Below are positions 17,990 through 35,461 of a stretch of 47,267 nucleotides of DNA, one piece after another (positions within the stretch are counted from its first letter, which is position 1; each line of letters opens with the position of its first letter). The position numbers and the translations under genes were made by a program. The DNA is from Gammaproteobacteria bacterium. Lineage in GTDB: Bacteria; Pseudomonadota; Gammaproteobacteria; Steroidobacterales; Steroidobacteraceae. The stretch is taken from assembly GCA_028293725.1 (NCBI GenBank), contig JAQGOE010000047.1, positions 1 through 47,267 of the forward strand. The letters run 5' to 3'. The notes beneath the pieces were generated by a model, which was given only the letters and a program-made list of their open reading frames with translations, made no database searches and was not told where the DNA came from.

Positions 17990-18047
17990 GGGGTGTCTCC
18001 CAGTAACTGCCGGCGGTACTGCCGGGACTGGAAGAACGCTACGCCCC

Positions 18048-18076: not shown

Positions 18077-18092
18077 ACCTTTTAGGACATTC
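18061..18092. promoter_or_regulatory. 10 bp inverted repeat, candidate operator
   Basis: GAATGTCCTA (18061-18070) and TAGGACATTC (18083-18092) pair perfectly around a 12 bp centre, so equivalent bases lie 22 bp apart (two helical turns). The repeat lies in the divergent SDR/regulator region, spans the predicted regulator -10, and abuts the regulator's GGAG site. It is the likely binding site of the GlxA-type protein for autoregulation and control of the SDR. Confidence 0.65.
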
Positions 18093-18105
18093 GGAGACGG
18101 CCGCT

Positions 18106-19044: not shown

Positions 19045-19130
19045 CCTGCGTCGCGACCGCTGACGATCGGCTAACTTCGGCGCGCGACACCCCTCCGGGC
19101 ACGCGCGCGTCGGGTCCGCGCCCGCTTTAC

Positions 19131-19571: not shown

Positions 19572-19573
19572 CT

Positions 19574-20342: not shown

Positions 20343-20443
20343 GTGAATCTCCAGTGACGTGGCCCGCTCGGGCGCCACAGTCGCCAACCTAACGGGAGAT
20401 TCACATAAAGTCTGTCAGAGGGTGCCTACACAGCAAAGCGCGC

Positions 20444-21820
20444 TCAGCCGTTGCCAACCGCCAACGCCTCGCGCGCAGGATCGATGGAGCGTGATAACCA
20501 CGCATACACCGAGCCCGACACCAACAATCCGACCAGCCAACCCACGTCTACCCCACCAAGTGCTTGCGCAGCCGGGCCGACATAGACACCCGGCAGCACG
20601 AAAAATGGCAGGGTTGCAGCGAAACCTATGACGTAAGCGACCAGCCCGCGCGCGCCCCAAGCGCCATAGATACCGTTTGGCAGGAACAGTTGCGCAATAA
20701 CGTAGCGCCCGCGACGGACAAAGAAGTAATCAATGAGGTTGATCGACGTCCAGGGCACCAGCAGATACAGCATCATGGTGAGCGCCGCGAACAGCAACTC
20801 GATTGAGTTGGAGGTGCTTCCGAAGGCCAGCGTCACCCAGACCACGGCAAGCGCAATCACGGTAATCACACGCAATCGAGTGGTCGGAGTGATCTCGAAT
20901 AGCGAATTCAACGCGGTCACTATCGTGAGCATTCCGCTGTACGCATTCAGCCCCGTGGCGGCGGTAAGGGCAGTGACTGAGCACAGCGATAGCAGCACTC
21001 CGAATCCCGGAATCAGCACATTGCCCGCATCATTGAGTGCTACCAGGCCATCCGAGGCTCCGAGACGCGTCGCCAGCCATGCACCAACGGCGATCAGCCA
21101 TATGGCCGATGAGGCGGCACCCAGATACACCGCCGCTATGATCGAAGAGCGACTGGTGTTACGGGGGAGATAGCGAGAGTAGTCCGAGACCGAAGGCGCA
21201 TAGGTGATGTTGAAGCTCGCGCTCGCCGCGAACTGGCCGGCGAACGCCACGGCTGAAAATCCGCCGACCATGGCATGCGTCGGCGGCACCTTCCCCAAGA
21301 CGATAGCCACGGTCAACAGCGCGTAGAGCGGCAGACAAACAAAGAAGCACCAGCGGAAAATCCGATGCAGCCAGTCATACCCGTAGATCGCCAGCAGCGC
21401 CGCGGCGACCGACGTCACGATTGTCACCGCGCGCTCGTTCCAACCGAGAATTCCGTTGAGCCCGTGAGCGGACAGCACGCTGTTGGCGACATTGAAACCG
21501 AGGAAGGTAAAAAGAGTGCCGATCAACACGACCACCACACCCCGAAAACCAAACTGGGCGCGCGACTGGACCATCTGCGGCAGACCCAACTCCGCGCCCT
21601 GGGAGGCATGAAACGCCGCAAACAAGGTTCCGAATAGAATGCCCAACGTCCCCGCGAGGGCCGTGTAGCCGAAGCTCAGCCCCATGCTCGGACCGACGAA
21701 ACCGATCGCGACCGTAAAAAAATGGAAGTTGCCCAGAAACCAGAACGACACCTGGTCGCTCACGCGCCCGTGACGCTCGGTGTCCGGCACGTAATCAATG
21801 GATTTGCTCTCGATCGCCAA
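20444..21820 (-). CDS. NCS1-family permease (cytosine/purine/allantoin type)
   Basis: 458 residues, about 12 transmembrane segments. The N-terminal FWFLGNFHFFTVAIGFVGPSMGLS, QSRAQFGFRG and the helix-6 segment FNITYAPSVSDYSRYLPRNT are typical of NCS1 (PF02133) symporters for cytosine, purines, hydantoins or allantoin. The only sensible start is TTG at 21820, 11 bp after the DUF1028 stop; the next methionine would remove helix 1. It is the last gene of the six-gene operon led by the TonB receptor and riboswitch, where it should carry the substrate or a product across the inner membrane. A related permease is encoded at 29509. Confidence 0.93.
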   Translation of the reverse strand: MAIESKSIDYVPDTERHGRVSDQVSFWFLGNFHFFTVAIGFVGPSMGLSFGYTALAGTLGILFGTLFAAFHASQGAELGLPQMVQSRAQFGFRGVVVVLIGTLFTFLGFNVANSVLSAHGLNGILGWNERAVTIVTSVAAALLAIYGYDWLHRIFRWCFFVCLPLYALLTVAIVLGKVPPTHAMVGGFSAVAFAGQFAASASFNITYAPSVSDYSRYLPRNTSRSSIIAAVYLGAASSAIWLIAVGAWLATRLGASDGLVALNDAGNVLIPGFGVLLSLCSVTALTAATGLNAYSGMLTIVTALNSLFEITPTTRLRVITVIALAVVWVTLAFGSTSNSIELLFAALTMMLYLLVPWTSINLIDYFFVRRGRYVIAQLFLPNGIYGAWGARGLVAYVIGFAATLPFFVLPGVYVGPAAQALGGVDVGWLVGLLVSGSVYAWLSRSIDPAREALAVGNG

Positions 21821-21831
21821 ACAGCGTCCCG

Positions 21832-22509
21832 TCAGCGATCGCCCGGAACACCGAAACTCGGTGCCGCGGCCGGATCGAGTGCCCGACGGACATAATCCTC
21901 AACCTGAGGCTCGTAGCGCTCCCAGAGCGCCGCGAGCTTCGCGACAGGATCGTCATCAGCCCAGTCGACGCGCAGATCCACAATGGGCCAGCTCACGTCG
22001 CGCACGACTAGAAGCCCCGCTGAGTGGATAGGCCCCGCCTCGCCACCAGCTTCAACACCAGCACGCAAGGCCTGCAACAGCCTGGCGGCGAACTGCGCCT
22101 CAAACTGCGCCTCAAACGCCGCAACCATCACCGCCGGCACATCCGCCCGCGCCAACAGATTCCCCGCCGCCGCGGCATTTGCCCCCACCGCCGAACCAAC
22201 CACTCCCAACGCCTTCGTTCCCGAATGCACTACAGGCGGCCCCTCTCGCCCGACCACGATGAGCTGCCTATAAGCCCCAAAGGGCGTCGAATGCAGTGCA
22301 TCCTCCAGCGCCGCTCGAGCGCTCGCGCCCCTGTCGAGCCCATCCAGAATCTGCGGCCCCAACGAGGGGTCCGTAATGTTCTGGGTAGCGACCGCCCCCG
22401 TACCCCGGCGTGCGTGCGCGCATCGCGCGGCAACAGCCGGCGACGACGACGCGATCGCGACACCAAACATGTTCCCTTCGGGAAAGCGCGCGGCGATCGA
22501 TAAAGTCAT
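21832..22509 (-). CDS. DUF1028 protein, Ntn-hydrolase-like
   Basis: 225 residues. MTLSIAARFPEGNMFGVAIASSSPAVAARC and RGTGAVATQNITDPSLGP are characteristic of DUF1028, a family with a predicted N-terminal-nucleophile-like fold seen in several amide and pyrimidine catabolic clusters. The function is not established. A tandem 12 bp duplication (22091-22114) makes an FEAQFEAQF repeat in a helix; it is in frame and probably harmless. Gap of 3 bp to the RidA gene upstream and 11 bp to the permease downstream: clearly one operon. An amidase-type step is a fair guess. Confidence 0.9.
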   Translation of the reverse strand: MTLSIAARFPEGNMFGVAIASSSPAVAARCAHARRGTGAVATQNITDPSLGPQILDGLDRGASARAALEDALHSTPFGAYRQLIVVGREGPPVVHSGTKALGVVGSAVGANAAAAGNLLARADVPAVMVAAFEAQFEAQFAARLLQALRAGVEAGGEAGPIHSAGLLVVRDVSWPIVDLRVDWADDDPVAKLAALWERYEPQVEDYVRRALDPAAAPSFGVPGDR

Positions 22510-22512
22510 CCT

Positions 22513-22929
22513 TCACTCCTCATCGGGAATGACCGCAATCACATCCACCTCGACCAGCCACTCCGGCCGCGCGAGACCCGCGACCACGATGCCCGTCGAC
22601 ACTGGATAGACGCCCTTCAGCCGGCTCCCGATCGTTCGATACACCGCCTCCCGGAAGCGCGGATCGGTGAGATAGATGGTGATCTTGCAGATGTGCTCGA
22701 TCTTCGCGCCGGCTTCGCCCAACAGCTTCTCGATGTTCTGCATCGCCTGCTCGGCCTGCGCCGCCGCGTCACCGATACCGACATTCACCGCCGTGTCGAG
22801 ATCCTGCCCGACCTGGCCGCGCACGAACACCACACTGCCGCGCGCAACGACGGTCTGGCACAGGTCGTTATCGAGCTTCTGCTCCGGATAGGTATCCCGA
22901 GTGTTGAATTTGCGAATTCGGATGTGCAT
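22513..22929 (-). CDS. RidA/YjgF-family protein lacking the catalytic arginine
   Basis: 138 residues. The fold signature is clear (VVFVRGQVGQDLDT, CKITIYLTDPRFREAVY, EVDVIAVI). Classical RidA enamine/imine deaminases have an arginine in a YPARS segment (Arg105 in E. coli RidA). Here the equivalent is YPVST (residues 108-112), with Ser111 in place of the arginine. It therefore belongs to a divergent Rid subgroup and may have another hydrolytic or binding role. It starts 3 bp after the monooxygenase stop and ends 3 bp before the DUF1028 start. In the Rut pyrimidine pathway a RidA homologue (RutC) also accompanies a flavin monooxygenase, a useful parallel. Confidence 0.92.
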   Translation of the reverse strand: MHIRIRKFNTRDTYPEQKLDNDLCQTVVARGSVVFVRGQVGQDLDTAVNVGIGDAAAQAEQAMQNIEKLLGEAGAKIEHICKITIYLTDPRFREAVYRTIGSRLKGVYPVSTGIVVAGLARPEWLVEVDVIAVIPDEE

Positions 22930-22932
22930 ACG

Positions 22933-24438
22933 CTATTTTCCGGCGAACCACTGTTGGATGGCCTTGTCCCCCGGTGGCCGGTCCGTCTTGGCCATGACCC
23001 GTTCGGACAGATCCGCCGCCTTGCGGACGAACTGCAGCGGCCCTTCCCAATCGAAATTGCGATATACCGCGGCCAGATGCGCGAACGGCGGCGACTGCGC
23101 GAACAGCTGGAACGTCAGCCGGTGTCCGGCGTAGTCGGAGTTCAGCAGGTCCCGCGCCAGGGCGAGCAGCTTACGACGATCGTCCGCAACCCAACTCTCG
23201 TTCACCGAATAATACTTCTCGAGCCAGGGCTTAGTTTCAACAGCGTCGAATGCCGCCTTATCCGGGGTGATGCAGATCTGTCCGCCACACAACTCGCGCG
23301 CGATGTGCATGAGGTGATGCAATTGCGAGCAGGCCAGAACGCGCCCGGCATAAAGGAGCGACTGATTCGGCATGAGCAGCCCTGCCGGACTCTTTTCGGC
23401 GAGCGCGATCGACGCCGTCAGATGGGCGTTGATTCCCTCGCGATACACGGCGAGCTCGGCGAGCTTTTCCTGCACCGCCTGCTGCTTGTCGAGTCCCGTC
23501 TGCCTGACATTGAAAAGCGCAGCGCCAATCATCATGTCCGCGAGCTTCAGGTTCCGCTGCACGAACGCGAATGCCGAGTAGCGGTGCAGGGTCGCTCGAA
23601 TGAACATTGCCGCCTTGGTATGGCGGTAGAAGAGCACGTTTTCCCAGGGAATCAGCACGTCATCAAAAATGACGAGCGCCTCGACCTCATCGAAGCGGTT
23701 CGACAAGGGATAGTCGGCGGCCGGCGCGCGCCCGGCGAACCCGGTGCGGCAGATGAACTTCAGACCTGGCGAGTTGAAATTGCAGATGAACCCGACGGCG
23801 TAGTCCGACAACGCCTGGCTACCCCAGTTGGCGTTAGTCGGTTTGGTGAACGCCTGATTCGCATAGGCCGCCGCGGTCTCATACTTCGCTCCGCGGACGA
23901 CGATGCCCGCGTCGGTTTCGCGCACGACGTGCAGGAGCATGTCGGGATCCTGCTCCTGCGGCGGCTTGGAGCGGTCGCCTTTGGGGTCGGTATTCGCCGA
24001 GACATGAAACGGATCGGAGTGTAAAACCGCGTCGATATGCCGCCGGATGTTGGTCGAGAACTGCGGGTCGACCTCGTTGAGCACGTCCTGCCCGTCGAAC
24101 AGAGACCACATCTCGCCGACCGTCTCGTCGCCGACGCGAGTCACGATCCCGCCGATTTCTTCCAGGATCGTGTCGGTCGCGCGGCGCTTCACCCACCAGT
24201 CTTCCTGCGTGCGCGGTAGCTTGTTGGCGATGGCGTTCCACTCTTCCTGGCCCTCCTCGCGATACGCGAGGAGCTCGCGCGTCCCCGACTCGTGCTGCAT
24301 GTCGTAGATGCGGGCGCGAATATCGATCAACGGCTTGAACATCGGGTGCTCGGCGAGCGCCTTGACGCGCTCGCCGTTGATGTAAACCTCACGGGCGTCG
24401 CGGATGGAGTCCAGATACTCCCGGCCGGTCCTGATCAT
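22933..24438 (-). CDS. HpaB-type flavin-dependent monooxygenase (4-hydroxyphenylacetate 3-hydroxylase family)
   Basis: 501 residues, the normal length. RTGREYLDSIRDAREVYINGERV is the family N-terminus; VIFDDVLIPWENVLFY and the helical C-terminal part complete it. Such enzymes use reduced FADH2 from a partner reductase and O2 to hydroxylate an aromatic or heteroaromatic ring; ring-opening follow-up chemistry is known for some members. No HpaC-type reductase lies in the window, so it must come from elsewhere. The gene sits between the M20 deacylase (22 bp gap) and the RidA-like protein (3 bp gap) in the riboswitch-led operon. A pyrrole- or pyrimidine-like substrate would fit the neighbours better than a phenol, but this is inference. 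Confidence 0.92.
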   Translation of the reverse strand: MIRTGREYLDSIRDAREVYINGERVKALAEHPMFKPLIDIRARIYDMQHESGTRELLAYREEGQEEWNAIANKLPRTQEDWWVKRRATDTILEEIGGIVTRVGDETVGEMWSLFDGQDVLNEVDPQFSTNIRRHIDAVLHSDPFHVSANTDPKGDRSKPPQEQDPDMLLHVVRETDAGIVVRGAKYETAAAYANQAFTKPTNANWGSQALSDYAVGFICNFNSPGLKFICRTGFAGRAPAADYPLSNRFDEVEALVIFDDVLIPWENVLFYRHTKAAMFIRATLHRYSAFAFVQRNLKLADMMIGAALFNVRQTGLDKQQAVQEKLAELAVYREGINAHLTASIALAEKSPAGLLMPNQSLLYAGRVLACSQLHHLMHIARELCGGQICITPDKAAFDAVETKPWLEKYYSVNESWVADDRRKLLALARDLLNSDYAGHRLTFQLFAQSPPFAHLAAVYRNFDWEGPLQFVRKAADLSERVMAKTDRPPGDKAIQQWFAGK

Positions 24439-24460
24439 GCCAATACCCCCGGAAAACTTT

Positions 24461-25606
24461 TTAAACCAGCCGCTCCAGCAGCGCGTCCATCATTGCGTCA
24501 CAGCGGTGCAACTGGTCGCGATCAATATATTCGTCGGGCTTGTGGGCCTGATCGATCGAGCCGGGCCCGCACACCACCGTGGGCACACCCAAGCGCTCGT
24601 TGAACAGGCCCCCTTCGCTGCCGAAGCCCACTTTGATCCGTTCGTGCTGGCCCGTCAAAGCAGCCACAAACGCTACGACCTCCGAGTCAGCCGGCGTATC
24701 GAGCGGCGGATATTCGTTGGTTACCTCCAGCTCGATGCCGACATCCACATCATCTCTTTGGACCGAGCTGGCGATGGCGGCGGCATCCGCGCGCAGTCCC
24801 GCGACGATCTGCGCCGCGTCGTCTTCGGGAAGGTTGCGAATTTCGAATTCGAGGTCGCACCGCGCCGGCACTATGTTGAGCACTGTGCCGCCGCGCACGA
24901 CTCCCACATGGAGCGTGGTGTACGGAACGTCGTAGGCGTCATCGCGCACGCCACCCGCTTCGATGCTCGATTGTCGAACCCGAATCTTGTCGACCAACTC
25001 GGTAGCCATGTAGATGGCATTGACGCCGCGACCCGGAGAGGCGGAATGCGCGGCATGCCCACGACAGGTCGCCGCCAATGCAGTCTTGCCTTTGTGGCCT
25101 ATCGCCGGACGCAGCAGAGTCGGTTCGCCGACGATGCAAAACTGCGGCCGATGGGCCCAGGTCGCCATGTCGTCGATGAGGGAGCGAACCCCCACACAAC
25201 CGATCTCCTCGTCGTACGAGAAAGCCAGCTGCAGCGGAATACGCAACTCGCGCTCGGTTGCGAGCTGTGCTGCCCGCAAGGCACACGCGATGAATCCCTT
25301 CATGTCCGCAGCGCCGCGAGCGTAGAGCCGCCCGCCGCGCTCGACCAGGCTAAAGGGATCGGAAGTCCACCGCTGCCCGTCTACCGGAACGACGTCCGTG
25401 TGCCCGGAAAGTAGCACCCCGCCGCGATCTCTGGGACCTACGACGGCATACAGGTTGGCCTTGCGACCGCTCGCGTCCCCGTAGAGCTTCGCTCGCACAC
25501 CGCAACTCGCCAGGAAGTCCCGCACATACTCGATCAGCGCCAGGTTCGAATCCCGGCTGACCGTTGGAAAACTGATCAGCCGCTCCAGTATCTGCTCGCT
25601 GTTCAT
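24461..25606 (-). CDS. ArgE/DapE-family M20 metallo-deacylase
   Basis: 381 residues. SGHTDVVPVDG carries metal ligands His69 and Asp71, GAADMKGF supplies Asp101, and YDEEIGCVG supplies the catalytic Glu133 and ligand Glu134. The pattern is closest to N-acetylornithine deacetylase (ArgE). No signal peptide: cytoplasmic. Its position second in a catabolic operon, not in an arginine biosynthesis cluster, suggests that it removes an acyl, formyl or carbamoyl group from a pathway intermediate; an ornithine- or arginine-like substrate would suit the guanidine riboswitch. It follows the TonB receptor by 21 bp. Confidence 0.93.
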   Translation of the reverse strand: MNSEQILERLISFPTVSRDSNLALIEYVRDFLASCGVRAKLYGDASGRKANLYAVVGPRDRGGVLLSGHTDVVPVDGQRWTSDPFSLVERGGRLYARGAADMKGFIACALRAAQLATERELRIPLQLAFSYDEEIGCVGVRSLIDDMATWAHRPQFCIVGEPTLLRPAIGHKGKTALAATCRGHAAHSASPGRGVNAIYMATELVDKIRVRQSSIEAGGVRDDAYDVPYTTLHVGVVRGGTVLNIVPARCDLEFEIRNLPEDDAAQIVAGLRADAAAIASSVQRDDVDVGIELEVTNEYPPLDTPADSEVVAFVAALTGQHERIKVGFGSEGGLFNERLGVPTVVCGPGSIDQAHKPDEYIDRDQLHRCDAMMDALLERLV

Positions 25607-25627
25607 TCGACGGCTTGGAGCACTGGC

Positions 25628-28207
25628 CTAACGCTCCTTGAACGAGTAGCCGACCGTGATACCGACCGTACGCGGCTGGGACACGACCGCCTGGAAGCGA
25701 TTCCCGTAAATCGCAGGATCGGTGTAGGAGTTGATGCCCAGATTGTTCGTGATGTTGTTCACGTACAGTGACGCCAGCCAATGGGTGCGCGTAAACGTGA
25801 CGCGGGAGTCGACCATAGTGTAACCCGGTACGTGCGGCACTGTCGCCGACAGCGCGGGAATGATCACGCTCCGATAATTCGCATTCGCCGCGAACTCCAG
25901 CTCACCGTCCGCGATACGGATGTGGCCGTACTCGACCCCGAGCGCGACGCTGTTCTTCGGCGTACCGGGCATCGGCGAGCCCAGGGCGGGCGCGGGCACC
26001 GAAGTGTTTGGGTAAGAGAACAGAGGACTGATGCTCTTGAGCTTCGTCTGGTCGTACGTATAGCTCAACTGCGCACCCAAATGCCGCGTAATGCTGGCAT
26101 TGAACTCCATCTCCACACCGCGGCTCTGGGCGTCGCCGATGTTCAACGCCGCCGGGAGCACCAACGGCGTGAGCTGCACGCCTTCCTGTACGTTGTGCCA
26201 TTCCATGTCGTAGACCGCTACGGAATAGCTGAACCGCCCGGCGAGGGTTCCCTTGGCACCCACTTCGTAGTTGTCGACTTTGTCGGGCGCCAAATGGTTG
26301 AGTGCCGCCGGCAGAACGTAATGATCGTGAAATACACCGTTTTGATCTGTGTAACCCACCGGCTCGGTGGGCGGCAGCGCATTGACTCCGCCGCGCCGGA
26401 AACCCTGCGACCAGGTCGCATAAACCAGGTCGGTCTTGTCCAACTGGTAGGCGGTATTGACCTTCCACAACGCCCTGCGGAACTCGTCGCTCAAAGCCTC
26501 GTTCGCGGCGAAGCCCGGACCGTCGAACAGCAGGCCGGTCTGCTGCGCCTGGTTGACTGTCTGTTTGAACGCGCGCGTACCGCCGGTGACACTCCAGGCG
26601 GAGGTAACATGCCAAGTCAACTCGCCGAAGACAGCGAGGTCTTTGAACCGGGTTTCGAAATCGCCGATGTAAGCTTGATCGCGAACCAGGGGAATGCCGG
26701 CAACGCTGGTTGCGCCCGTATCAATGTACTCGCCCAATCCACACGTCGAGCCGTTCACAGCGCCTAAATCGGAAGGCACCGTCTGCGGACAATTGGCGTA
26801 GAAGCCGTCATAGCCGGGATAGTACTCGTGCTCCTGAATGAAGGTCTTCTGATCCTTGTAGAAGACGCCCGCCACCCAGTCAAACGTGCCTCCCGACTTG
26901 GAAGCCAGGCGAAACTCCTGGGACCATACCTTGTCATCGAACCGGTCGTGCCCCTGGATGAAGGAGCGGGGATTCTGACCGTAGAAGTTCTGGTAGAAGT
27001 AAAAGTTGGTGTACAGCGCAGTGAGATCGGTGTCGGTCGCGTTGTCATGACGCGCCCACGAGCTCGAGGACGTGAGGGTCGCGAAGCCCAGGTCATAGTC
27101 CGCTTCCAGCGCGACCAGGTTGACGCTGTCGCTCGTACCCTCCAGGCTGTTGGTCGCCGAGGATAGCCGATCGACGCCGGCCGGTACTGGGCTGTTATAG
27201 AGCTGCGGGATCAGATTCGTTCCCGGCAGCTGAGTGTTCGGGCTGATCCACTGGTTGTACGCTGCCGACTGTGTCGCTACGTACGGAAACCCACCGGCCG
27301 CGGCCCTCTGATAGTAATAGGAGAGCTGCGCCTTGAAATCATCGTTGGGCTTCCACAACGCCGCCAGACGAACGTTGCGATATTCATAGGTGTTCACGCC
27401 GTACTTGGACCACTTCGCCGGCGCGATGGCCGGATCGACGCCCACCGGGTTCGCGGGGGTGAGGGGTTGCGAAGATAGCGGTACACCGCTGCCGTCGAGC
27501 TGATAAAGGTTCGGTTGATTGATGAACCCCGCATCGTCGGTCCAACCCGCGTTCAAACGGATGGCGAACGTCTCGGTGATCGGCAGGTTGAGCACACCTG
27601 TGATGTCTTCGTTGAGCGCATGAGTGTGGTCTGTCTTGCTCAGACCCGCCTCGACCTTGGCGTCGAAGGCGCTGGGATCAGGCGCATTCTGGACAAAGCG
27701 AATGGTGCCGCCCAGGGATCCGGAACCATACAGTGTGCCTTGCGGCCCGCGCAGAATCTCAACGTGATCAAGATCCTGTAAACGCAAGTTCACAAACAGT
27801 GGTGTGTCATCCACGTAGGTCGCAACAGGCGGTATGACTGGCGAAGCCAACGCCAATTGACCCGCAGTGGCCTCACTGTTCAAGCCGCGAATGATCAGGG
27901 TGCTACCGTTGATGCCGCCAAACGGACCTTTGTCGGTGAAGTTGACTCCTGCCATGGAGTGCGCCAGACCCGCGATGTCCTGGATTCCCTCTTTCTCGAG
28001 AGCAGCACCGCTGACCGCAGTGATACTCAGCGGAATGTCCTGTGCCGTGGTGACACGCCGTGTGGCCGTCACGGTCACTTCACTTATGCCGATGTCCGAA
28101 TCCGCATCCGCGTGCGCAGGCGCGCCATACAGTGCGGTCAGAACGGCCGCCGTTACGGAAGTTGCTTTCAGATAGGTGGAGGGCAGAACAGTTTTTGTCT
28201 TTTTCAC
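25628..28207 (-). CDS. TonB-dependent outer-membrane receptor, first gene of a guanidine-I riboswitch operon
   Basis: 859 residues from GTG at 28207, where a clean signal peptide begins (MKKTKTVL..., cleavage near AHA-DAD) behind GAGGAG; the frame is open to 28309, but that part would overlap the leader and is not signal-like. After the signal come a TonB-box-like ISEVTVTATRR, a plug domain (DIPLSITAVSG...YVDDTPLF...LRGPQGTLYGSGSLGGTIRF) and a 22-strand barrel ending in VGITVGYSFKER. It belongs to the broad iron-complex/organic-substrate receptor group of sphingomonads and gammaproteobacteria. Context points to uptake of an organic nitrogen compound rather than a siderophore. Confidence 0.93.
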   Translation of the reverse strand: MKKTKTVLPSTYLKATSVTAAVLTALYGAPAHADADSDIGISEVTVTATRRVTTAQDIPLSITAVSGAALEKEGIQDIAGLAHSMAGVNFTDKGPFGGINGSTLIIRGLNSEATAGQLALASPVIPPVATYVDDTPLFVNLRLQDLDHVEILRGPQGTLYGSGSLGGTIRFVQNAPDPSAFDAKVEAGLSKTDHTHALNEDITGVLNLPITETFAIRLNAGWTDDAGFINQPNLYQLDGSGVPLSSQPLTPANPVGVDPAIAPAKWSKYGVNTYEYRNVRLAALWKPNDDFKAQLSYYYQRAAAGGFPYVATQSAAYNQWISPNTQLPGTNLIPQLYNSPVPAGVDRLSSATNSLEGTSDSVNLVALEADYDLGFATLTSSSSWARHDNATDTDLTALYTNFYFYQNFYGQNPRSFIQGHDRFDDKVWSQEFRLASKSGGTFDWVAGVFYKDQKTFIQEHEYYPGYDGFYANCPQTVPSDLGAVNGSTCGLGEYIDTGATSVAGIPLVRDQAYIGDFETRFKDLAVFGELTWHVTSAWSVTGGTRAFKQTVNQAQQTGLLFDGPGFAANEALSDEFRRALWKVNTAYQLDKTDLVYATWSQGFRRGGVNALPPTEPVGYTDQNGVFHDHYVLPAALNHLAPDKVDNYEVGAKGTLAGRFSYSVAVYDMEWHNVQEGVQLTPLVLPAALNIGDAQSRGVEMEFNASITRHLGAQLSYTYDQTKLKSISPLFSYPNTSVPAPALGSPMPGTPKNSVALGVEYGHIRIADGELEFAANANYRSVIIPALSATVPHVPGYTMVDSRVTFTRTHWLASLYVNNITNNLGINSYTDPAIYGNRFQAVVSQPRTVGITVGYSFKER

Positions 28208-28607
28208 AGCACACGGTCTCCTCGAGCAAGCAGCAGCTAGCGCACTTGCGGGATGACCGAGCACAGTTGCCGGGATTTTCCCCAACAAAGGAGATCGTCC
28301 CGGGGACACGGTCGACGCCTCCCCGCAATCAGATCTCCCGGGCTTTTATCCCGCCGTGTATCCACGCGAGCCGTTGGCTGCGCGGGGACTGCCTCTCTCG
28401 GACCAGACACCCACTATGGAGCAGGCCGGAACCCTAGACGCACATTTTCCAATGTCGTTGCAAAGCCCGTGCCGGGGTCGGCAGCAGCCCCCGGGATGGC
28501 ATATTTACCTTGGAAAATAGGTGCTTACGTGCGGTGTACAGGTGTGCTGAGAAAGCAACACCGGGTCCGCGCACGCACCACGGCGGAGCAGTGCACCAGC
28601 CGCTGCC
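28208..28607 (-). other. 400 bp gene-free leader and promoter region of the TonB-receptor operon
   Basis: No credible gene lies here. The minus strand holds, in order of transcription, an unassigned 5' part (28607-28440), the riboswitch aptamer (28439-28332) and about 124 bases of downstream leader before the GTG. In that leader GGAGATC at 28290-28296 (plus strand) is complementary to GATCTCC at 28332-28338, the 3' edge of the aptamer, and could form a competing helix. A GTCCC-G-GGGAC palindrome lies at 28297-28307. No clear intrinsic terminator with a U run was found, so translational or Rho-linked control is possible. No promoter could be fixed with confidence. Confidence 0.6.
28332..28439 (-). 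promoter_or_regulatory. guanidine-I (ykkC subtype 1) riboswitch aptamer
   Basis: Read on the minus strand, three blocks appear in order and spacing: CTAGGGTTCCG (28437-28427), CTGGTCCGAGAGA, and ACACGG followed by GGGATAAAAGCCCGGGAGA (ending at 28334). These are the invariant elements of the ykkC class. The GTCCGAGAGA form is that of subtype 1, which binds guanidinium; the ppGpp and PRPP subtypes (2a, 2b) usually have a CCGAGCG-type segment. A variable hairpin (GCAGCC, AAC loop, GGCT) separates the second and third blocks, as expected. It lies about 125 bases upstream of the TonB receptor start. Identified from remembered consensus; a covariance search was not run. Confidence 0.9.
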
Positions 28608-29423
28608 CTAACACTGCCCGTCGAAGTTGGAAGTTAACTGTGCGTAGAGCTCGGGCCGTCGATCGGCCCTGTAGGGAAAACACTTGGCGGCGGCGAGACG
28701 CCGCGCTTGGCTGATCTCTCCGATGATGAGAGCGTCGCCCACACCCGCCGCGGCAATCGCCTTGCCATCGATATCCGCCAGCAGGGAGCCGCCCAGGAAT
28801 CGCATGCCGTTCTCAACCCCGGCATGATTGCAGTAGGCGACGAAGACCTGGTTCTCGACCGCACGGGCGGGAACGATATAGTCGGGCACGACCGAATATT
28901 CGTGGGTCAACGCGGTAGGCACGAGTATGACATCCGCACCGAGCAGGGCCAAACTTCGCACGGCTTCCGGATACTCGACGTCGTAGCAGATCAGCAGCCC
29001 CATTTTGAAGCCTCCCAGCTCGAAGGGCGGCTCGAAACACTCACCCGGACGATAAACGGCCCGCTCGTCCGGGCCGAAGAGGTGGGTCTTACGATAATGA
29101 GCCAGCCGTCCCCCATCGGGACCTATGACCTGGGCCGCGTTGTAGATCTGTCCGCCGGAAACATCCCGCTCCGCGTAGCCGTACGCGATCGCTATGTTGT
29201 TGCGCCGGGCAATCCCCGCGATAACCTGGGAGGAAATGCCGTCCCGTTGCTCGGCCAGCGTCGCCACGGCGGCGCCGATGTTGTAGCCGCAGAGCCAGCA
29301 TTCCGGACATAACAGAAGCGACGCGCCGGCCGTGGCGGCCGCCCGGGCCGTCGTTTCCAGCGCTCCGAGATTGGCCACCGTGTCCGCGGGGAAGCCGGCC
29401 GTCTGCCACAAAGCGAGTTTCAT
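28608..29423 (-). CDS. nitrilase-superfamily carbon-nitrogen hydrolase
   Basis: 271 residues. The Glu-Lys-Cys triad is visible: Glu41 in CPECWLCGY, Lys112 in YRKTHLFGP and Cys146 in LICYDVEYPE. The GPDERAVYRPGE and LVPTALTHEYSVVPDYIVPARA segments are close to aliphatic amidases such as 5-aminopentanamidase and to enzymes assigned to 4-guanidinobutyramide hydrolysis in arginine oxidation. It lacks a signal peptide. It is transcribed toward the TonB receptor, 400 bp upstream of it, and divergent from the permease operon at 29509. With the ureohydrolase at 32660 it could perform amide then guanidine hydrolysis of one substrate; this link is inferred. Confidence 0.92.
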   Translation of the reverse strand: MKLALWQTAGFPADTVANLGALETTARAAATAGASLLLCPECWLCGYNIGAAVATLAEQRDGISSQVIAGIARRNNIAIAYGYAERDVSGGQIYNAAQVIGPDGGRLAHYRKTHLFGPDERAVYRPGECFEPPFELGGFKMGLLICYDVEYPEAVRSLALLGADVILVPTALTHEYSVVPDYIVPARAVENQVFVAYCNHAGVENGMRFLGGSLLADIDGKAIAAAGVGDALIIGEISQARRLAAAKCFPYRADRRPELYAQLTSNFDGQC

Positions 29424-29440
29424 TGTTTTACTGTGCTCCT

Positions 29441-29455
29441 CGCACGGTCCGTGCG
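29441..29455. promoter_or_regulatory. perfect palindrome in the nitrilase/permease divergent region
   Basis: CGCACGG-T-CCGTGCG, two 7 bp arms around one base, in the 85 bp between divergent start codons. It lies 17 bp upstream of the nitrilase ATG on the minus strand. It is placed to bind a dimeric repressor controlling both directions. No regulator gene is adjacent, so the binding protein is unknown. Confidence 0.5.
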
Positions 29456-29508
29456 CAAAGAAGTACGATACCCCAAGGGCGCACTATCATAAGAGGTCGA
29501 GACCCCCT

Positions 29509-30894
29509 GTGAACAACCGCGAGCAGGCCGCGCGCCTGGAAATCAATACCATCCAGCCGATCCCGGTCGATGCGCGGCACGGCACGGCGCGCGATCTGTT
29601 CAGTGTCTGGTTCGGCTCGAATCTCATGCTGCTGACGATTGTAACGGGCGGCCTGGCGGTGACCGTCTTCGCGCTGCCTTTCGGATGGGCCATCGTGGCG
29701 CTCGTGGTCGGCAATCTCGTCGGGGCCGTCTTCATGGCCCTCCACGCCGCGCAAGGGCCGACGCTCGGCGTGCCCCAGATGGTACAGACACGGGGCCAGT
29801 TCGGATCGCTAGGCTCTCTGCTGGTGGTCGGCATCGTCATCATCATGTACCTGGGATTTCTGTCTTCCAACCTCGTCATCGGCGGCGAGGCCATTGCGAA
29901 CGTCAGGCCCGGTTTGTCGGACGTTCCAGGCATTGCCCTTGTGGGCGTGCTCAGCGTTATCGCCGCGATCTTCGGTCACGATCTCATACACGCCTACGCC
30001 CGGGTAATGACTTACCTGTCTGGTGTCGTTTTCTTGGTCACGGTCGGGTGGATCATTTGGGTACACGGTTTGCCCCCCGACTTCCTCACGCGAAACTCGC
30101 TGACGGCCTCCGGATTTCTTGGCACCGTATCGACGGCGGCGCTTTGGCAGATCGCGTACGCACCGTATGTTTCCGACTACTCACGGTACATGCCTCGCGA
30201 CACGGGAGTGCGCACCGCGTTCTGGGCGACCTACTGGGGCTGCACGCTGGGCTCACTTCTACCGATGATTCTCGGCGCCATGGTGGGCCTCGCGGCGACG
30301 GAAAAGAGTCTCGTCGCGGGGCTCGCAACGCTGACTCACGGCATCGCGCCGCTGGTCCTCATCGTTTTCTCCGTTGGTGTGGCCACCACGAATGCCATGA
30401 ACCTGTATTGCGGCGTGCTGTCGGTCCTGACTTTCGGACAGACTCTTTTCCCCGCGTGGATGCCCAAGGCGGCCGCCCGTGGGGTGATTTCGGTGATCCT
30501 CTTCAGCCTCTCACTGGCGGGTGCGCTACTCGGCAAGGACACGTTCCTGGCCAGCTACACCGAATTCATCCTACTGCTTCTGTACGTGTTGGTTCCGTGG
30601 ACCGCCGTGAACCTCGTCGACTACTACCTGCTGCGCCACGGGCAGTACGACGTACCTTCGTTCTTCCGGCAGGATGGAGGAATCTACGGACGTATCAATG
30701 CCGCGGCCGTGGAATGCTATGTCATCGGCATCCTCGTGCAATTGCCGTTTGTCGTCTCTCCGGTGTACACCGGACCTGCGGCGCGCGCGATGGGAGGACT
30801 CGACATCTCGTGGATTGTGGGTCTGGCGGTGACTGGTCCGATTTATTATTGGCTCGCAGGTCGCTCGCAGGCCCGCCGGGCAGCTACCGCATGA
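29509..30894 (+). CDS. NCS1-family permease, second copy in the island
   Basis: 461 residues from GTG at 29509; the frame is open upstream but that part overlaps the nitrilase gene. About 12 helices. QMVQTRGQFGSLGS, WQIAYAPYVSDYSRYMPRDTG and the LYVLVPWTAVNLVDYYLLRHGQYDVPSFF block match the permease encoded at 20444, so these are paralogues of the cytosine/purine/allantoin transporter group. An AGAGG lies 12 bases before the start. The stop overlaps the next start as ATGA. Two related permeases in one island suggest two related substrates, or substrate and product exchange. Confidence 0.92.
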   Translation: MNNREQAARLEINTIQPIPVDARHGTARDLFSVWFGSNLMLLTIVTGGLAVTVFALPFGWAIVALVVGNLVGAVFMALHAAQGPTLGVPQMVQTRGQFGSLGSLLVVGIVIIMYLGFLSSNLVIGGEAIANVRPGLSDVPGIALVGVLSVIAAIFGHDLIHAYARVMTYLSGVVFLVTVGWIIWVHGLPPDFLTRNSLTASGFLGTVSTAALWQIAYAPYVSDYSRYMPRDTGVRTAFWATYWGCTLGSLLPMILGAMVGLAATEKSLVAGLATLTHGIAPLVLIVFSVGVATTNAMNLYCGVLSVLTFGQTLFPAWMPKAAARGVISVILFSLSLAGALLGKDTFLASYTEFILLLLYVLVPWTAVNLVDYYLLRHGQYDVPSFFRQDGGIYGRINAAAVECYVIGILVQLPFVVSPVYTGPAARAMGGLDISWIVGLAVTGPIYYWLAGRSQARRAATA

Positions 30895-31616
30895 CAGTCG
30901 CCCCCCAGGCCGCCGGTACGCCGGCTCCCGGTATGCCCCCTGCAGGGGTTGCGGGCCTGCAGGGCCTGTGGCGGCGATCGCTGATCGCATGGCCCAGCCG
31001 TGGCGCCAGCGACACGACGACGAGCGTCCGTTGGCTGCAGGGCCCACGCGCCTACATCGATCTTCGACAGCCCGCACCCATACCTGACTTCTCCCGCGCA
31101 CGAACTCTCGAAGACCTGACATACGACGACTGTGTCTGGCTGGCACGCCAGGAGGGCTTCGCCGGTTATCTGAGCTTCGACGGAACGCATTTCGAGTGGA
31201 TCCGGGAGATCGACTTTCAGCCACCCTCCCCGAGCGCCGATGCCGGCTCGCTGAGGTGGGAAGGCGACGTGTTGATCGAAACCGGCCGCGACGCCGACTA
31301 CATCGAGCACTGGCACCGCGACCCCTCGATTCCAACCACGCCCGCCGCCATCGTTGATCTGCAAGGCGCCGCACACAAAACCCGGGCAACGTTGCTGCGA
31401 GTGGGTCCGCATTTCATGTTCGCGCGCGCCCGCGCCACGAGCTTGGAGAAGGGCTACGGCTCGCTGGCGGAATATGTCGCAGCCGCGCCAGACCTGACGC
31501 GCGTGCGCGAGTTGATCGATTGCGAAATTTCTTTCGGCCGGGTGGATGAGTCGGGCCTGCGCATCACGGCCTCGACCCTCCCCTACAGAATCGGCGCTCT
31601 CATGGAGTTGGAATAA
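30891..31616 (+). CDS. uncharacterised protein, possibly lipocalin-like (Hri1-type)
   Basis: 241 residues from ATG at 30891, which overlaps the permease stop by 4 bp; the stop TAA shares its last base with the next ATG (TAATG). After a proline/alanine-rich start comes LQGLWRRSLIAWP, then SVRWLQGPRAYIDLRQP and a strand-rich region with WEGDVLIETGRDADYIEHWHRD. The W-R-R-S ... W-L-Q-G ... D-L-R pattern resembles Hri1-like or lipocalin-type barrel proteins, by memory only. There is no signal peptide or membrane helix. Tight coupling to the permease and oxygenase makes it a real pathway gene whose role is unknown; binding or hydrolysis of a small ligand is possible. Confidence 0.82.
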   Translation: MTVAPQAAGTPAPGMPPAGVAGLQGLWRRSLIAWPSRGASDTTTSVRWLQGPRAYIDLRQPAPIPDFSRARTLEDLTYDDCVWLARQEGFAGYLSFDGTHFEWIREIDFQPPSPSADAGSLRWEGDVLIETGRDADYIEHWHRDPSIPTTPAAIVDLQGAAHKTRATLLRVGPHFMFARARATSLEKGYGSLAEYVAAAPDLTRVRELIDCEISFGRVDESGLRITASTLPYRIGALMELE

Positions 31617-32656
31617 TGGGACTCGAGCCCGACAAGCTTCCCGTCGTGAACGTCAGCGCATTGTTCGGCGACGATCCCGACGCCATCGCCGCGACAGCCG
31701 CGGAAATGGGCAAAGCCGCACGAGCGTTCGGCTTTCTATACGTGACCGGCCATCAGCAACCCCCAGCGTTGTTCGACGCAGTACTGGCGGCCGCGAAACG
31801 TTTTTTCGCACAATCTGCCGACGAGAAGCTGCGCGTTTACATCGGCAACTCCCGCAATCATCGCGGCTATGTGCCGGAGGGCGAGGAGGTATTCGCAGGG
31901 GGCGCCAAGGATGCGAAGGAAGCTTACGACAGCTCGCGCGACCTGCCCGCTGACGACCCGGAGTATCTCGCAGGCAACCCCCTGCTCGGCCCCAATCAAT
32001 GGCCCGATCTGCCGGGATTCAAGGCCGCGGTGAGCGACTATTATCGCGCCACCTTCGAGCTGGGTCGCGTGCTGTTGAGAGGATTTGCCCTCGCGCTGGG
32101 AGAAGCCCCCGACCTGTTCGCACCCTTCCTGACACGGCCACCGAGTCAGTTGCGGCTCATACACTACCCGTACGACAACAACGCGTCCGACCGGCCCGGC
32201 CTGGGCGCCCACACCGACTACGAATTCTTCACGATGCTGCGCTCGACCGCGCCGGGTCTCGAAGTGATGAACGAGGCGGGTGCCTGGATCGACGCTCCAC
32301 CGCTTCCGAACGCCTACGCCGTGAACATTGGCGACATGCTGGAGCTATGGACGAACGGAGAGTTCGTCGCGACGTCGCATCGCGTCCGCAAGGTGCGCGA
32401 GGAGCGCTACTCATTCCCGCTGTTCTTTGCGGTCGATTACAACACGCGCATCGCGCCAATGCCGCGCCTGCTACGCCCCGGAGGTCCGATCCGCACACCC
32501 CTCATTGCTGGTGAGCACCTGTTCGCGCAGACGGCGCAGACTTTCACGTATCTGCGCAAGCGACTGGAGACCGGCGAATTGGTCCTACCGGAGTCGTCGC
32601 TCGCACTGGCCTCTTTCGGCCAGCAGGCGAAACTCGGTGCGGTCCAGGAGACGTAG
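31616..32656 (+). CDS. 2-oxoglutarate/Fe(II)-dependent oxygenase, isopenicillin N synthase-like
   Basis: 346 residues. An N-terminal DIOX_N-type domain (FGFLYVTGH) is followed by the catalytic barrel. Iron ligands are His199 and Asp201 (GAHTDYEF) and His255 (ATSHRV); the 2-oxoglutarate carboxylate would bind Arg264 and Ser266 (RYSFPLFF). The RGYVPEGEEVF segment is typical of bacterial members. This superfamily includes thymine-7-hydroxylase and the ethylene-forming enzyme, which releases guanidine from arginine; both fit the neighbourhood, but the sequence does not decide. It is the third gene of a coupled operon (TAATG overlap) and ends 3 bp from the convergent ureohydrolase. Confidence 0.92.
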   Translation: MGLEPDKLPVVNVSALFGDDPDAIAATAAEMGKAARAFGFLYVTGHQQPPALFDAVLAAAKRFFAQSADEKLRVYIGNSRNHRGYVPEGEEVFAGGAKDAKEAYDSSRDLPADDPEYLAGNPLLGPNQWPDLPGFKAAVSDYYRATFELGRVLLRGFALALGEAPDLFAPFLTRPPSQLRLIHYPYDNNASDRPGLGAHTDYEFFTMLRSTAPGLEVMNEAGAWIDAPPLPNAYAVNIGDMLELWTNGEFVATSHRVRKVREERYSFPLFFAVDYNTRIAPMPRLLRPGGPIRTPLIAGEHLFAQTAQTFTYLRKRLETGELVLPESSLALASFGQQAKLGAVQET

Positions 32657-32659
32657 TGA

Positions 32660-33658
32660 CTAGACCAGCGCCTCGGAGCGACCCATACCGAAATGGCGGT
32701 CCGCGATGAGACAAAGGATTTCAAACATCAGGGTCGCGCCCACCAGGGCGGTGTTGCCTGTTTGGTCATAAGGCGGCGCCACCTCCACCACGTCACCACC
32801 GATGAGGTTCAATCCGCGCAACCCACGCAGGAGCCGCTGCGCCTCCAACGTCGTGATGCCACCGATCTCGGGCGTCCCCGTACCGGGCGCATAAACGGGA
32901 TCGAGCCCGTCCACATCGAACGAGATGTACGTCGGCCCATCGCCGACGACCTCGCGAGCCTCCTCGATGACGCGCTCGACACCGAGCGAAGCAAACTCCT
33001 CGATAAAGACAACTCGCATGCCCATCGCGCGGGAGAACTCGATTCCCTCCATGAAGTTCTGGCCGCCACGGATTCCGATCTGAATGGTCCGCCGCGGATC
33101 GAGCAGCCCCGCCTCGACGGCGAGCCGAAAGGGTGCTCCATGATGGAATTTGGATCCTGCAAACTCGCCCCACGTATCGGTATGCGCGTCGATGTGCACC
33201 ATTCCGATGGGTGCGGAGGCGGCGAGCGCTCTGAAGATGGGATAGGTGATCGAGTGATCGCCGCCCGCCGTGACGGGCCGTATACCGGCCGCGTGCACCT
33301 TGCGGTAGAACGCCTCAATTTCCTCAACCTGCTTCGGCAGGTCGAAGCGGTTCGAAAACCGAACGTCGCCGAGATCGGCGATGCGACACAGATCGTAGGG
33401 ATTCAGCTCGAGACCGAGATTGAACGCCCGCATGAGACTCGAAGCGTTGCGGATCTCACGCGGGCCATGCCGCGCTCCCGGCCGGTTCGTGACGCCGAGA
33501 TCGGTAGGGACACCAATGAGCCCGATATCGACTTCAGCGAGGCTCCGCGCCAGCGGCGCACGCATGAAGGTTGCTATCTCCGCATAGCGCGGCTCCTTCA
33601 TCGGATCGTATTCGCCGCCGCCGACGATATCCGGACGAATGTAGCTCTTCTCGGCCAT
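32660..33658 (-). CDS. agmatinase-like ureohydrolase (guanidino-compound hydrolase)
   Basis: 332 residues, ATG at 33658 with AAAGGA about ten bases upstream. All dinuclear metal ligands of the arginase/agmatinase family are present: His135 (GGDHS), Asp157, His159 and Asp161 (HIDAHTD), Asp248 and Asp250 (FDVDGLDP). The family releases urea from guanidino groups. The GVPTDLGVTNRPGARHGPREIR start and KFHHGAPFRLAVE segment place it with agmatinase, guanidinobutyrase and guanidinopropionase, and with the guanidine hydrolases annotated as agmatinases. The exact substrate is not readable. In an island with a guanidine riboswitch it is the obvious guanidino-cleaving enzyme. Confidence 0.93.
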   Translation of the reverse strand: MAEKSYIRPDIVGGGEYDPMKEPRYAEIATFMRAPLARSLAEVDIGLIGVPTDLGVTNRPGARHGPREIRNASSLMRAFNLGLELNPYDLCRIADLGDVRFSNRFDLPKQVEEIEAFYRKVHAAGIRPVTAGGDHSITYPIFRALAASAPIGMVHIDAHTDTWGEFAGSKFHHGAPFRLAVEAGLLDPRRTIQIGIRGGQNFMEGIEFSRAMGMRVVFIEEFASLGVERVIEEAREVVGDGPTYISFDVDGLDPVYAPGTGTPEIGGITTLEAQRLLRGLRGLNLIGGDVVEVAPPYDQTGNTALVGATLMFEILCLIADRHFGMGRSEALV

Positions 33659-33720
33659 GTTTCATTATCCTTTCACCACACTCTATTGGACAGGCCGTCC
33701 CTGCGGCCACACGGATGCAC

Positions 33721-35457
33721 ATGAAATTTAGATTAAACGCCGTTCTGGTGTTCCTGGCCACGGCCGCCACCACGCAGCTTGCCTTAGCCGGGGGCATGCG
33801 CCCGGAAGTTGCCGAGCACGGCATGGTCGCAAGCGTTCACGAGCTAGCCTCCCGCGCCGGAGTGGAGATCATGCAAGCGGGGGGTAACGCCATCGACGCG
33901 GCGGTTGCGACGGCGTTCGCCCTGGCGGTGGTGCACCCGGCGGCCGGAAACCTCGGTGGCGGCGGATTCATGCTCATCCGCATGAAAGACGGCGCGACCC
34001 ATTTTCTCGATTTCCGCGAGAAGGCCCCCGCCAAGGCGACGGCGACCATGTACCAGGATGCGCAGGGAAACGTCATTCCCAACCTGAGCGTCGTCGGCTA
34101 CAAGGCGGTCGGCGTCCCCGGCTCGGTGAAGGGACTCGTCTACGCCGAGGAGCACTTCGGCAAGCTGGGACTGAAGCGGGTAATCGCTCCGGCTATCCGC
34201 CTGGCACGCGACGGTTATGCACTGAGTTGGAACAACGCCCGCCTGATGACCGAGGACAAGGCGATGGCGGAGTTCCCCGACACCAAGCGGATCTTTCAGA
34301 ATGACGGCAAGGGCTGGCACCAGAACGACATTTTCAAACAGCCGGAGCTGGCCCGCACTCTCGAGCGGATTGCCGCCGCACCCGATGACTTCTACACCGG
34401 CAAGATGGCTCACGAGCTCGCCGACTTCATGCAAAAAGGCGGCGGCCTCATCACCGCCGAGGACCTCGCCCACTACGAAGTGAAGGACCGCACTCCGGTA
34501 CGCGGCACGTATCGCGGGCTGGAAGTCATCAGCGCGCCGCCGCCGTCATCGGGCGGCATCGCGCTGCTGGAGGTACTCAACATTCTGGAGGGTTACGACC
34601 TTGGCAAGGCGGGGCTCGACTCGGCCGAATCCATCCATCTCATCACCGAGGCCTATCGGCGCGCCTTCTACGATCGCGCGCAGTTTCTCGGCGACCCGGA
34701 ATTCAGCGACGTCCCGGTGCTGCAACTCACCGACAAAAATTATGCCGTCGCGTGGCGCAGCTCGATCCAACCCACGCAGGCGACTAACTCGAGGACGTTG
34801 CAGCGTCCGCCGACTTCGACCGCCCTCGCTCGATACGTCGCCGCGCACCCGGTCGTCGCGCCCGTGAAAGAGAGCACTCAGACCACGCACTATTCCGTGG
34901 TCGATGCCGACGGTAACGCCGTTGCCGTGACAACGACACTCAATGCCTACTTCGGCTCTCGGGTCACGATCGGCTCGCTCGGCTTCCTCCTCAACGACGA
35001 GATGGACGATTTCTCCGCCAAGCCGGGCGCGCCCAACATGTTCGGCCTGATCCAGGGCGACGCGAACGCGGTGGGACCCAACAAGCGGCCGCTGTCGGCC
35101 ATGACGCCCACCATCGTGTTGAAGGAAGGCAAACTCTGGCTGGTCCTGGGAACCCCCGGTGGACCGACCATTATCACCACGGTCGCCAACATCCTGACCG
35201 GGGTGGCGGACTTCGGTCTCGACATCCAACAGGCCGTGAACGCCCCGCGCTTCCACGAGCAATGGCTGCCCGACCGCATCATGTTGGAGCGCGATCGCTT
35301 CTCGCCGGACACCGTCGCCCTGCTGAAGGAGCGCGGCAACGACATCAGCTACGGTGGCATCGGCGACGGTGAGTGTATCGAGATCGATCTCGGCAGCGGC
35401 CGTCGCCTCGGTGCCAGCGACGCCCGCAACGAAACCGGCAAGGCGGTCGGCTACTGA
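33721..35457 (+). CDS. ggt: gamma-glutamyltransferase, exported
   Basis: 578 residues from ATG at 33721 (an ATG two codons earlier at 33715 is equally possible). A signal peptide (MKFRLNAVLVFLATAATTQLALA) directs it to the periplasm. The autoprocessing threonine is Thr388 in ESTQTTHYSVVD, matching Thr391 of E. coli Ggt; the PLSAMTPTIV serine segment and GTPGGPTII glycine loop are also present. It should split into large and small subunits and hydrolyse or transfer gamma-glutamyl groups from glutathione or gamma-glutamyl amides. It diverges from the ureohydrolase and may be part of the same island, for example in removing gamma-glutamyl caps. Confidence 0.95.
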   Translation: MKFRLNAVLVFLATAATTQLALAGGMRPEVAEHGMVASVHELASRAGVEIMQAGGNAIDAAVATAFALAVVHPAAGNLGGGGFMLIRMKDGATHFLDFREKAPAKATATMYQDAQGNVIPNLSVVGYKAVGVPGSVKGLVYAEEHFGKLGLKRVIAPAIRLARDGYALSWNNARLMTEDKAMAEFPDTKRIFQNDGKGWHQNDIFKQPELARTLERIAAAPDDFYTGKMAHELADFMQKGGGLITAEDLAHYEVKDRTPVRGTYRGLEVISAPPPSSGGIALLEVLNILEGYDLGKAGLDSAESIHLITEAYRRAFYDRAQFLGDPEFSDVPVLQLTDKNYAVAWRSSIQPTQATNSRTLQRPPTSTALARYVAAHPVVAPVKESTQTTHYSVVDADGNAVAVTTTLNAYFGSRVTIGSLGFLLNDEMDDFSAKPGAPNMFGLIQGDANAVGPNKRPLSAMTPTIVLKEGKLWLVLGTPGGPTIITTVANILTGVADFGLDIQQAVNAPRFHEQWLPDRIMLERDRFSPDTVALLKERGNDISYGGIGDGECIEIDLGSGRRLGASDARNETGKAVGY

Positions 35458-35461
35458 GCGG

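Follow-up and report, generated by a model that had tools for sequence, protein, structure and literature searches.

A guanidine-I riboswitch at the head of a TonB receptor operon with a putative role in the uptake and oxidation of guanidino compounds in Steroidobacteraceae

The window, i.e. the whole stretch of 47,267 nucleotides of Steroidobacteraceae DNA that was analysed, carries on its minus strand a guanidine-I riboswitch followed by a predicted operon encoding a TonB-dependent receptor, an ArgE-like M20 deacylase, an HpaB-type flavin monooxygenase, a RidA-family protein, a DUF1028 protein and an NCS1 permease, in this order and with intergenic gaps of 3-22 nt (Table 1). The families of these genes suggest a role in uptake and catabolism, and their position behind the aptamer suggests induction by guanidine. 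Tentatively, and with somewhat more doubt than belief, we regard this arrangement as a new guanidine-I regulon, in which energised outer-membrane uptake and flavin-dependent oxidation of a larger guanidino natural compound would release guanidine, while a three-helix strand-exchange relay would free the ribosome-binding site.

The Rfam covariance search placed the aptamer (RF00442) at 28448-28333 with an E-value of 1.8e-14. It covers positions 1-107 of the 107 of the Guanidine-I model, is not cut off, and is the only Rfam match over the gathering score in the whole window. The original prediction had assigned the element to subtype 1 (guanidine-I) and had named a covariance score below the threshold as the outcome that would speak against it; 87.7 bits lies well over the cut-off of 63. 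The three ykkC blocks that it named are all present in the minus-strand sequence, and its span (28332-28439) was correct as to the presence of the element there, the ends being off by 1 base and 9 bases. Besides Guanidine-I, no Rfam family was found between positions 18000 and 36000 at E<=5, in a library that may be without subtype 2 models. According to PMC6031431, guanidine-I RNAs have A46 where subtypes 2a and 2b have a pyrimidine. In the window, A stands at both places in CCGAGAGA to which this residue may correspond. By its sequence and predicted structure, the RNA is almost certainly a guanidine-I riboswitch, with guanidine as its predicted ligand.

Table 1. Features of the riboswitch-headed operon, its leader and the neighbouring genes in the window
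Feature	Position	Strand	Basis
Guanidine-I riboswitch aptamer	28333..28448	minus	RF00442, 87.7 bits
Expression platform, predicted	28208..28332	minus	covariation and own-partner tests over 10 receptor leaders
Tail	28339-28332	minus	predicted
Arm a	28328-28321	minus	predicted
Arm b	28305-28298	minus	predicted
Arm c	28296-28290	minus	predicted
Arm d	28275-28270	minus	predicted
Arm e	28258-28246	minus	predicted
Shine-Dalgarno	about 28223-28217	minus	predicted
TonB-dependent receptor (probable GTG start)	25628..28207	minus	PF00593, PF07715
M20 deacylase, acetylornithine deacetylase type	24461..25606	minus	NCBIfam PRK07522, 517.5 bits, cut-off 412
HpaB-type two-component flavin monooxygenase, oxygenase component	22933..24438	minus	PF11794 (HpaB_N), PF03241 (HpaB)
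RidA-family protein	22513..22929	minus	PF01042 (Ribonuc_L-PSP)
DUF1028 protein	21832..22509	minus	PF06267
NCS1-family permease (NCS1a)	20444..21820	minus	PF02133 (Transp_cyt_pur)
Carbon-nitrogen hydrolase, just upstream of the riboswitch	28608..29423	minus	PF00795; amidase-type PDB matches
Second NCS1-family permease (NCS1b), divergent	29332..30894	plus	PF02133; probably starts further downstream than 29332
MgdL homologue, predicted N-(hydroxymethyl)guanidine lyase	30891..31616	plus	D57/R59; weak HRI1 match below cut-off
MgdH homologue, 2OG-Fe(II) dioxygenase, predicted methylguanidine hydroxylase	31616..32656	plus	PF14226, PF03171
Arginase-family ureohydrolase, guanidinopropionase-like	32660..33658	minus	PF00491; best PDB 3nip, 382 bits
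Gamma-glutamyltranspeptidase family (GGT)	33571..35457	plus	PF01019

The receptor probably starts at the GTG at 28207, which is preceded by GAGGAGA and followed by a signal-peptide-like N-terminus. The aptamer is separated from this codon by 125 nt, in line with the distance of about 125 bases originally given, although the mechanical ORF begins earlier, at 28309. The identities proposed at that time for the receptor, deacylase, flavin monooxygenase, RidA, DUF1028 and NCS1 proteins were matched by Pfam and NCBIfam profiles. Matches of the receptor to PDB entries were weak, the best being the pesticin receptor (60.5 bits). For the HpaB homologue the best PDB match was 2yyg (181.7 bits), and an assignment to the 4-hydroxybutyryl-CoA dehydratase type was rejected, since such proteins rank below hydroxylases in the PDB comparison. 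No partner flavin reductase was recognised in the operon by the Pfam scan; one may be encoded elsewhere in the genome. The single solved relative of the DUF1028 protein, 2imh, is of unknown function. Among the window genes scanned, no enzymes of the two known free-guanidine pathways (carboxylase, GdmH clade) were recognised.

The association of riboswitch and receptor recurs in related genomes. In a covariance search of the nearest-family set of 217 genomes, 25 genomes had guanidine-I sites over the cut-off, 29 in all, and one further match was weaker. Nine of the 29 directly precede the receptor clade of the window (G001, G279, G383, G372, G410, G370 and G416, as well as G373, with the receptor in pieces, and G409, cut by the contig end). 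The receptor was detected at E<=1e-150 in 19 of the 217 genomes, nine of which have the riboswitch somewhere and seven at the receptor's head; G008 and G009 carry a receptor-HpaB unit without a riboswitch at its head. In a class sample of 369 genomes, 38 sites over the cut-off were found in 29 genomes, and 30 of the 38 were made into loci, among them that of G001. When the remaining 29 loci were searched with four receptor queries at E<=1e-4, none showed a match within 1.5 kb (three loci being shorter than this), although a distant receptor could escape such a search. A tenth family site, in G376, is a guanidine-I riboswitch (L201:7170-7281) directly before a TonB receptor of another clade (L201:4466-7063).

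Gene orders were compared over ten riboswitch-receptor loci, the window and nine others, tblastn included. One of them (L209) repeats the order of the window through DUF1028, receptor-M20-HpaB-RidA-DUF1028; two more (L001 and L198) have the same order plus a flavin reductase with a fused LysR effector domain, and L198 additionally has a TPR-sulfotransferase. In L158 the order is receptor-M20-RidA-DUF1028-TPR-sulfotransferase-NCS1a, with a divergent NCS1b-MgdL-MgdH unit, and in L109 only the receptor and NCS1a stand behind the riboswitch. In the remaining loci (L199, L200, L205 and L202) the stretch read contains the receptor but not the block from M20 to DUF1028. Three genomes (G383, G410 and G409) encode, no more than about 20 kb from the receptor operon, a biotin-dependent carboxylase of the urea/guanidine-carboxylase type, and in G383 a second riboswitch is located about 1.5 kb before that carboxylase, on the same strand.

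Several other arrangements were seen in these genomes. Genes of TPR-sulfotransferases recur beside the receptor clade, with or without a riboswitch (L158:7657-9258, L198:1580-2998, L205:7591-9030, and by tblastn L159, L272 and L273); none was recognised in the window, and a literature search on receptor/sulfotransferase clusters yielded nothing usable. In L161, L165, L167 and L169 the receptor clade faces NCS1a homologues without a riboswitch, and in L161 the two are separated by a TetR regulator and a beta-lactamase-family gene. Two guanidine-I riboswitches are located back to back in L121, at 8775 (minus) and 9282 (plus), driving divergent units, and similarly close pairs of sites occur in G778, G525 and G506.

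The oxidative part of the operon has a wider distribution. HpaB was detected at E<=1e-200 in five of the 217 family genomes, all five of which carry a guanidine-I riboswitch somewhere, as against 25 of the 217 overall (hypergeometric 1.4e-5, kinship not corrected), and in three of the five the riboswitch is at the operon's head. The best 80 of 357 HpaB loci (73-86% identical) were then considered. Among these, RidA is present on the same strand within 5 kb of HpaB in 69 of the 80, DUF1028 in 65, M20 in 20 and arginase-family genes in 2, and NMT1/THI5-like binding proteins cluster near the module in 12. Other neighbours of the module include LysR regulators, aldehyde dehydrogenase, class III aminotransferase, and Rieske, OYE-type and PhyH proteins. 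The genomes of 50 of the 80 loci were subjected to the covariance search; for the other 30 the scan was limited to a motif pattern, which is insensitive to some riboswitches, as it did not flag the one of L050, found by the covariance search. A riboswitch over the cut-off is present in 14 of the 50 genomes, but only in L001 does it head the module, while that of L050 lies about 9 kb beyond HpaB, near the end of the locus. Judged by their record titles, between 34 and 37 of the 50 genomes are Alphaproteobacteria, eight of them with a riboswitch, compared with 18 of 289 in a sample of the Alphaproteobacteria (Fisher 0.003-0.004), a comparison in which the candidates scored per genome differ (up to 61 vs 12) and genome size is a confounder. 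As the HpaB-RidA-DUF1028 module is mostly not under a guanidine-I riboswitch, it may serve several or other substrates. No paper on a RidA/DUF1028/monooxygenase module was found. In two loci (L001:11502-12743 and L065:12763-14019) a fusion of flavin reductase and LysR substrate-binding domain is encoded between HpaB and RidA, which is possibly an effector-controlled reductase.

Beyond the genes of the original prediction, the surroundings of the riboswitch include a carbon-nitrogen hydrolase, which is in the same position in six of the ten riboswitch-receptor loci, and a divergent NCS1b-MgdL-MgdH unit facing an arginase-family gene that adjoins a GGT gene. A GGT homologue (79%) is located divergently to the riboswitch-receptor unit of L202. 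Before the divergent unit no second guanidine riboswitch was found at E<=5 (Rfam, 18000-36000). In V. boliviensis, MgdH hydroxylates methylguanidine and MgdL, which needs D49 and R51, splits the product into guanidine and formaldehyde (PMC12508155). The proteins of the window were likened to these by published description and are predicted homologues. A pair of D and R with the same spacing in the MgdL homologue, D57 and R59, is invariant in 44 aligned sequences, the window protein included, and is also present in the homologues of L124 and L125. A beta-barrel fold would be expected of an MgdL; the AlphaFold model of the window protein consists mostly of beta strands (14 strands, pLDDT 90.4).

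MgdL/MgdH homologues near guanidine-I riboswitches were also found in L124 and L125. Downstream of the L124 (Chthonobacter) riboswitch, the same strand encodes an NMT1-type binding protein, the dioxygenase, the MgdL homologue, ABC-type permease and ATPase proteins, a ureohydrolase resembling GdmH, a small protein that no Pfam family matches and a member of the HupE/UreJ family; the dioxygenase of this unit is 57% and its MgdL homologue 42% identical to that of the window. A reading of the last two genes as the nickel chaperones HypA/HypB was rejected, Pfam giving HupE/UreJ for one and nothing for the other. The 2OG-Fe(II) dioxygenase adjoins the MgdL homologue in the window, G410 and L124, and both are thus present in G410, whereas tblastn found no dioxygenase with the MgdL homologue in L001, L198 and L200, though all three have MgdL homologues. 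The arginase-family gene of the window was rejected as a GdmH: its match to the guanidinopropionase 3nip compares with 157 bits (7esr) and 150 bits (9fek), and it is 34-36% identical to the GdmH-like proteins of L124 and L126.

In the leader, binding of free guanidine likely turns on translation. From the leader sequences we infer translational ON control by strand exchange. In the OFF state the aptamer tail would pair with c, and a with b, while e would cover the Shine-Dalgarno sequence; in the ON state the ligand would hold the tail, b-c would pair with d and a with e, leaving the Shine-Dalgarno sequence free. Helix a:b excludes both b-c:d and a:e, because it shares strand b with the former and strand a with the latter. 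Covariation was measured on an alignment of the ten receptor leaders (A1), with arms picked by eye and with the tool's warning that related rows can beat such shuffles. For helix a:b, with 100% of cells paired and 5 pairs, 2 of them changed on both sides, the covariation score was reached in 1 of 500 shuffles, and for helix a:e (7 pairs, 88.7%, 4 such pairs) in none of 500. For b-c:d (6 pairs, 90%, 2 such pairs) the score was reached in 4 of 500, and the count of both-sided-change pairs alone in 128 of 500. In L198 and L205, for example, an A in column 37 is accompanied by U in columns 57 and 115, and the U in column 57 in turn by A in column 95; in L199 an A in column 38 is accompanied by U in columns 56 and 114. 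Duplexes of a leader's own arms beat those with shuffled partners for a:b, b-c:d and a:e (7, 0 and 7 of 5000), while in two control arm pairs own partners were no better than shuffled ones (2652 and 2283 of 5000). The values for tail:c and e:SD were weak (428 and 398 of 5000), and an alternative anti-Shine-Dalgarno pairing, c:SD, was rejected as no better than shuffled partners (3527 of 5000). Equilibrium folding with the tail locked freed the Shine-Dalgarno sequence in only three of the ten leaders (L109, L200 and L205); access fell in L198 and was unchanged in the window. Since equilibrium folding fits the ON state in only these three, either a kinetic relay is needed or the OFF/ON assignment is wrong.

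Alternatively, the riboswitch might act by transcription termination, intrinsic or Rho-dependent, the covarying helices only shaping an untranslated leader. Guanidine-I riboswitches are described as transcriptional in PMC12508155 and PMC11410670, and a generic terminator scan listed one weak terminator-like site of 5 pairs (28308-28296). An intrinsic terminator is nevertheless disfavoured, as a pattern search found a U-tract in none of the ten receptor leaders, and the 20 other family leaders contain a single one, broken, within 90 nt. The covariation of alternative helices with shared strands also argues against termination, which we consider unlikely, although a Rho-dependent form may operate.

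Translational control of this kind would serve product induction, in which a larger guanidino compound gives off guanidine and this would switch on the uptake and breakdown of the compound, an account that, as a whole, we believe and doubt in equal measure. The TonB receptor and the NCS1 permease would bring a guanidino compound of larger size than guanidine through the outer and inner membranes. The M20 deacylase, HpaB-type monooxygenase, RidA and DUF1028 proteins might shorten and oxidise this compound, with hydrolysis of an imine-type intermediate, and so set free guanidine or a small guanidino fragment. The neighbouring MgdH/MgdL-type pair may demethylate methylguanidine, and the arginase-family enzyme may hydrolyse a guanidino acid.

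The main rivals of product induction are uptake of free guanidine and a Rut-like ring opening. In the former, free guanidine, perhaps together with methylguanidine, would be the imported nitrogen source, the receptor and NCS1 the import pair, and the enzymes would act on co-arriving nitrogen compounds. Being small, guanidine should pass through porins, which would make a TonB receptor for it unusual, and the deacylase-monooxygenase-RidA-DUF1028 set would be left unexplained. The locus with receptor and NCS1a alone behind the riboswitch (L109) would fit such import, as would the riboswitch-controlled permeases and ABC importers proposed for guanidine in PMC12186494 and PMC11410670; on balance, this explanation appears improbable.

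Slightly less probable still is the opening of a 2-aminopyrimidinone-type ring (isocytosine, guanine or pterin derivatives) by the HpaB-type monooxygenase, RidA and NCS1 proteins, along the lines of uracil degradation by the Rut pathway, with the release of guanidine, which for such a ring is a chemical inference. NCS1 permeases belong to the nucleobase/allantoin/thiamine family, the RidA protein weakly matches RutC, and the NMT1/THI5-like binding proteins near the HpaB module in other loci would also be consistent with a ring substrate. However, RutA belongs to a different flavoprotein family than the HpaB type, the M20 protein is of the acetylornithine deacetylase type, and an acyl or peptidyl guanidino compound would be the better match for the GGT and arginase-family neighbours. 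That the receptor supplies a Ni-dependent guanidine hydrolase with its metal, as nickel or a nickel chelate, the riboswitch co-inducing this supply, is very improbable: guanidinium hydrolase is Ni-dependent according to PMC12508155 and the L124 riboswitch unit has GdmH-like and HupE/UreJ-family genes, but the ureohydrolase of the window is outside the GdmH clade, the ten receptor loci are without a GdmH-clade gene by tblastn except for arginase-family matches of the window and L001, and organic compounds are the substrates of the permeases and hydrolases nearby.

Compared with known systems, the aptamer is like RF00442 over its full length, whereas the element differs in heading a TonB receptor and an oxidative enzyme set, in having no U-tract and in its putative strand-exchange platform. 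Targets of guanidine-I are reportedly listed by Nelson et al. 2017. Associated genes named by other sources include urea carboxylases, efflux pumps and nitrate/sulfate/bicarbonate-type transporters (PMC7266159), and guanidinase, carboxylase, and ABC and APC permeases (PMC12186494, PMC11410670). No report tying a guanidine riboswitch to a TonB receptor was found in the available parts of the open-licence literature. The methylguanidine operon of V. boliviensis, described in PMC12508155, combines guanidine-I and -II riboswitches, the gca pathway and MgdH/MgdL. The window resembles it in having a homologous-type dioxygenase and lyase, matched by description, beside a guanidine-I unit, but here the pair is in a divergent unit with an NCS1 permease, no riboswitch was found before it, and no gca pathway was recognised. 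In the guanidinase operons of comammox bacteria and Synechocystis, guanidine-I controls the hydrolase GdmH and an importer (PMC12186494 and PMC11410670). The window would share the control of an importer, whereas its ureohydrolase is guanidinopropionase-like, is not of the GdmH clade and has no riboswitch heading it. The HpaB-(flavin reductase)-RidA-DUF1028(-M20) module, known here from Alphaproteobacteria and other groups, contains the same gene types as the window, but differs in its regulators and neighbours, with a riboswitch at its head only in L001 among those examined.

Few enzymes are known to produce free guanidine (PMC12508155), so that the origin of the riboswitch ligand calls for explanation. 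With a guanidine riboswitch recurring before a TonB receptor and oxidative enzymes, a source compound further upstream is indicated, and its existence can be put to the test; if this is true, guanidine would be the induction signal of its own source.

Two further genes of the window may be mentioned. The minus strand encodes a PrnB-family protein (12777-13961; PF08933, monodechloroaminopyrrolnitrin synthase), with no obvious pyrrolnitrin cluster among the genes scanned, and an Acetamidase/formamidase-family protein (44766-45797; PF03069), which is another possible nitrogen-compound hydrolase.
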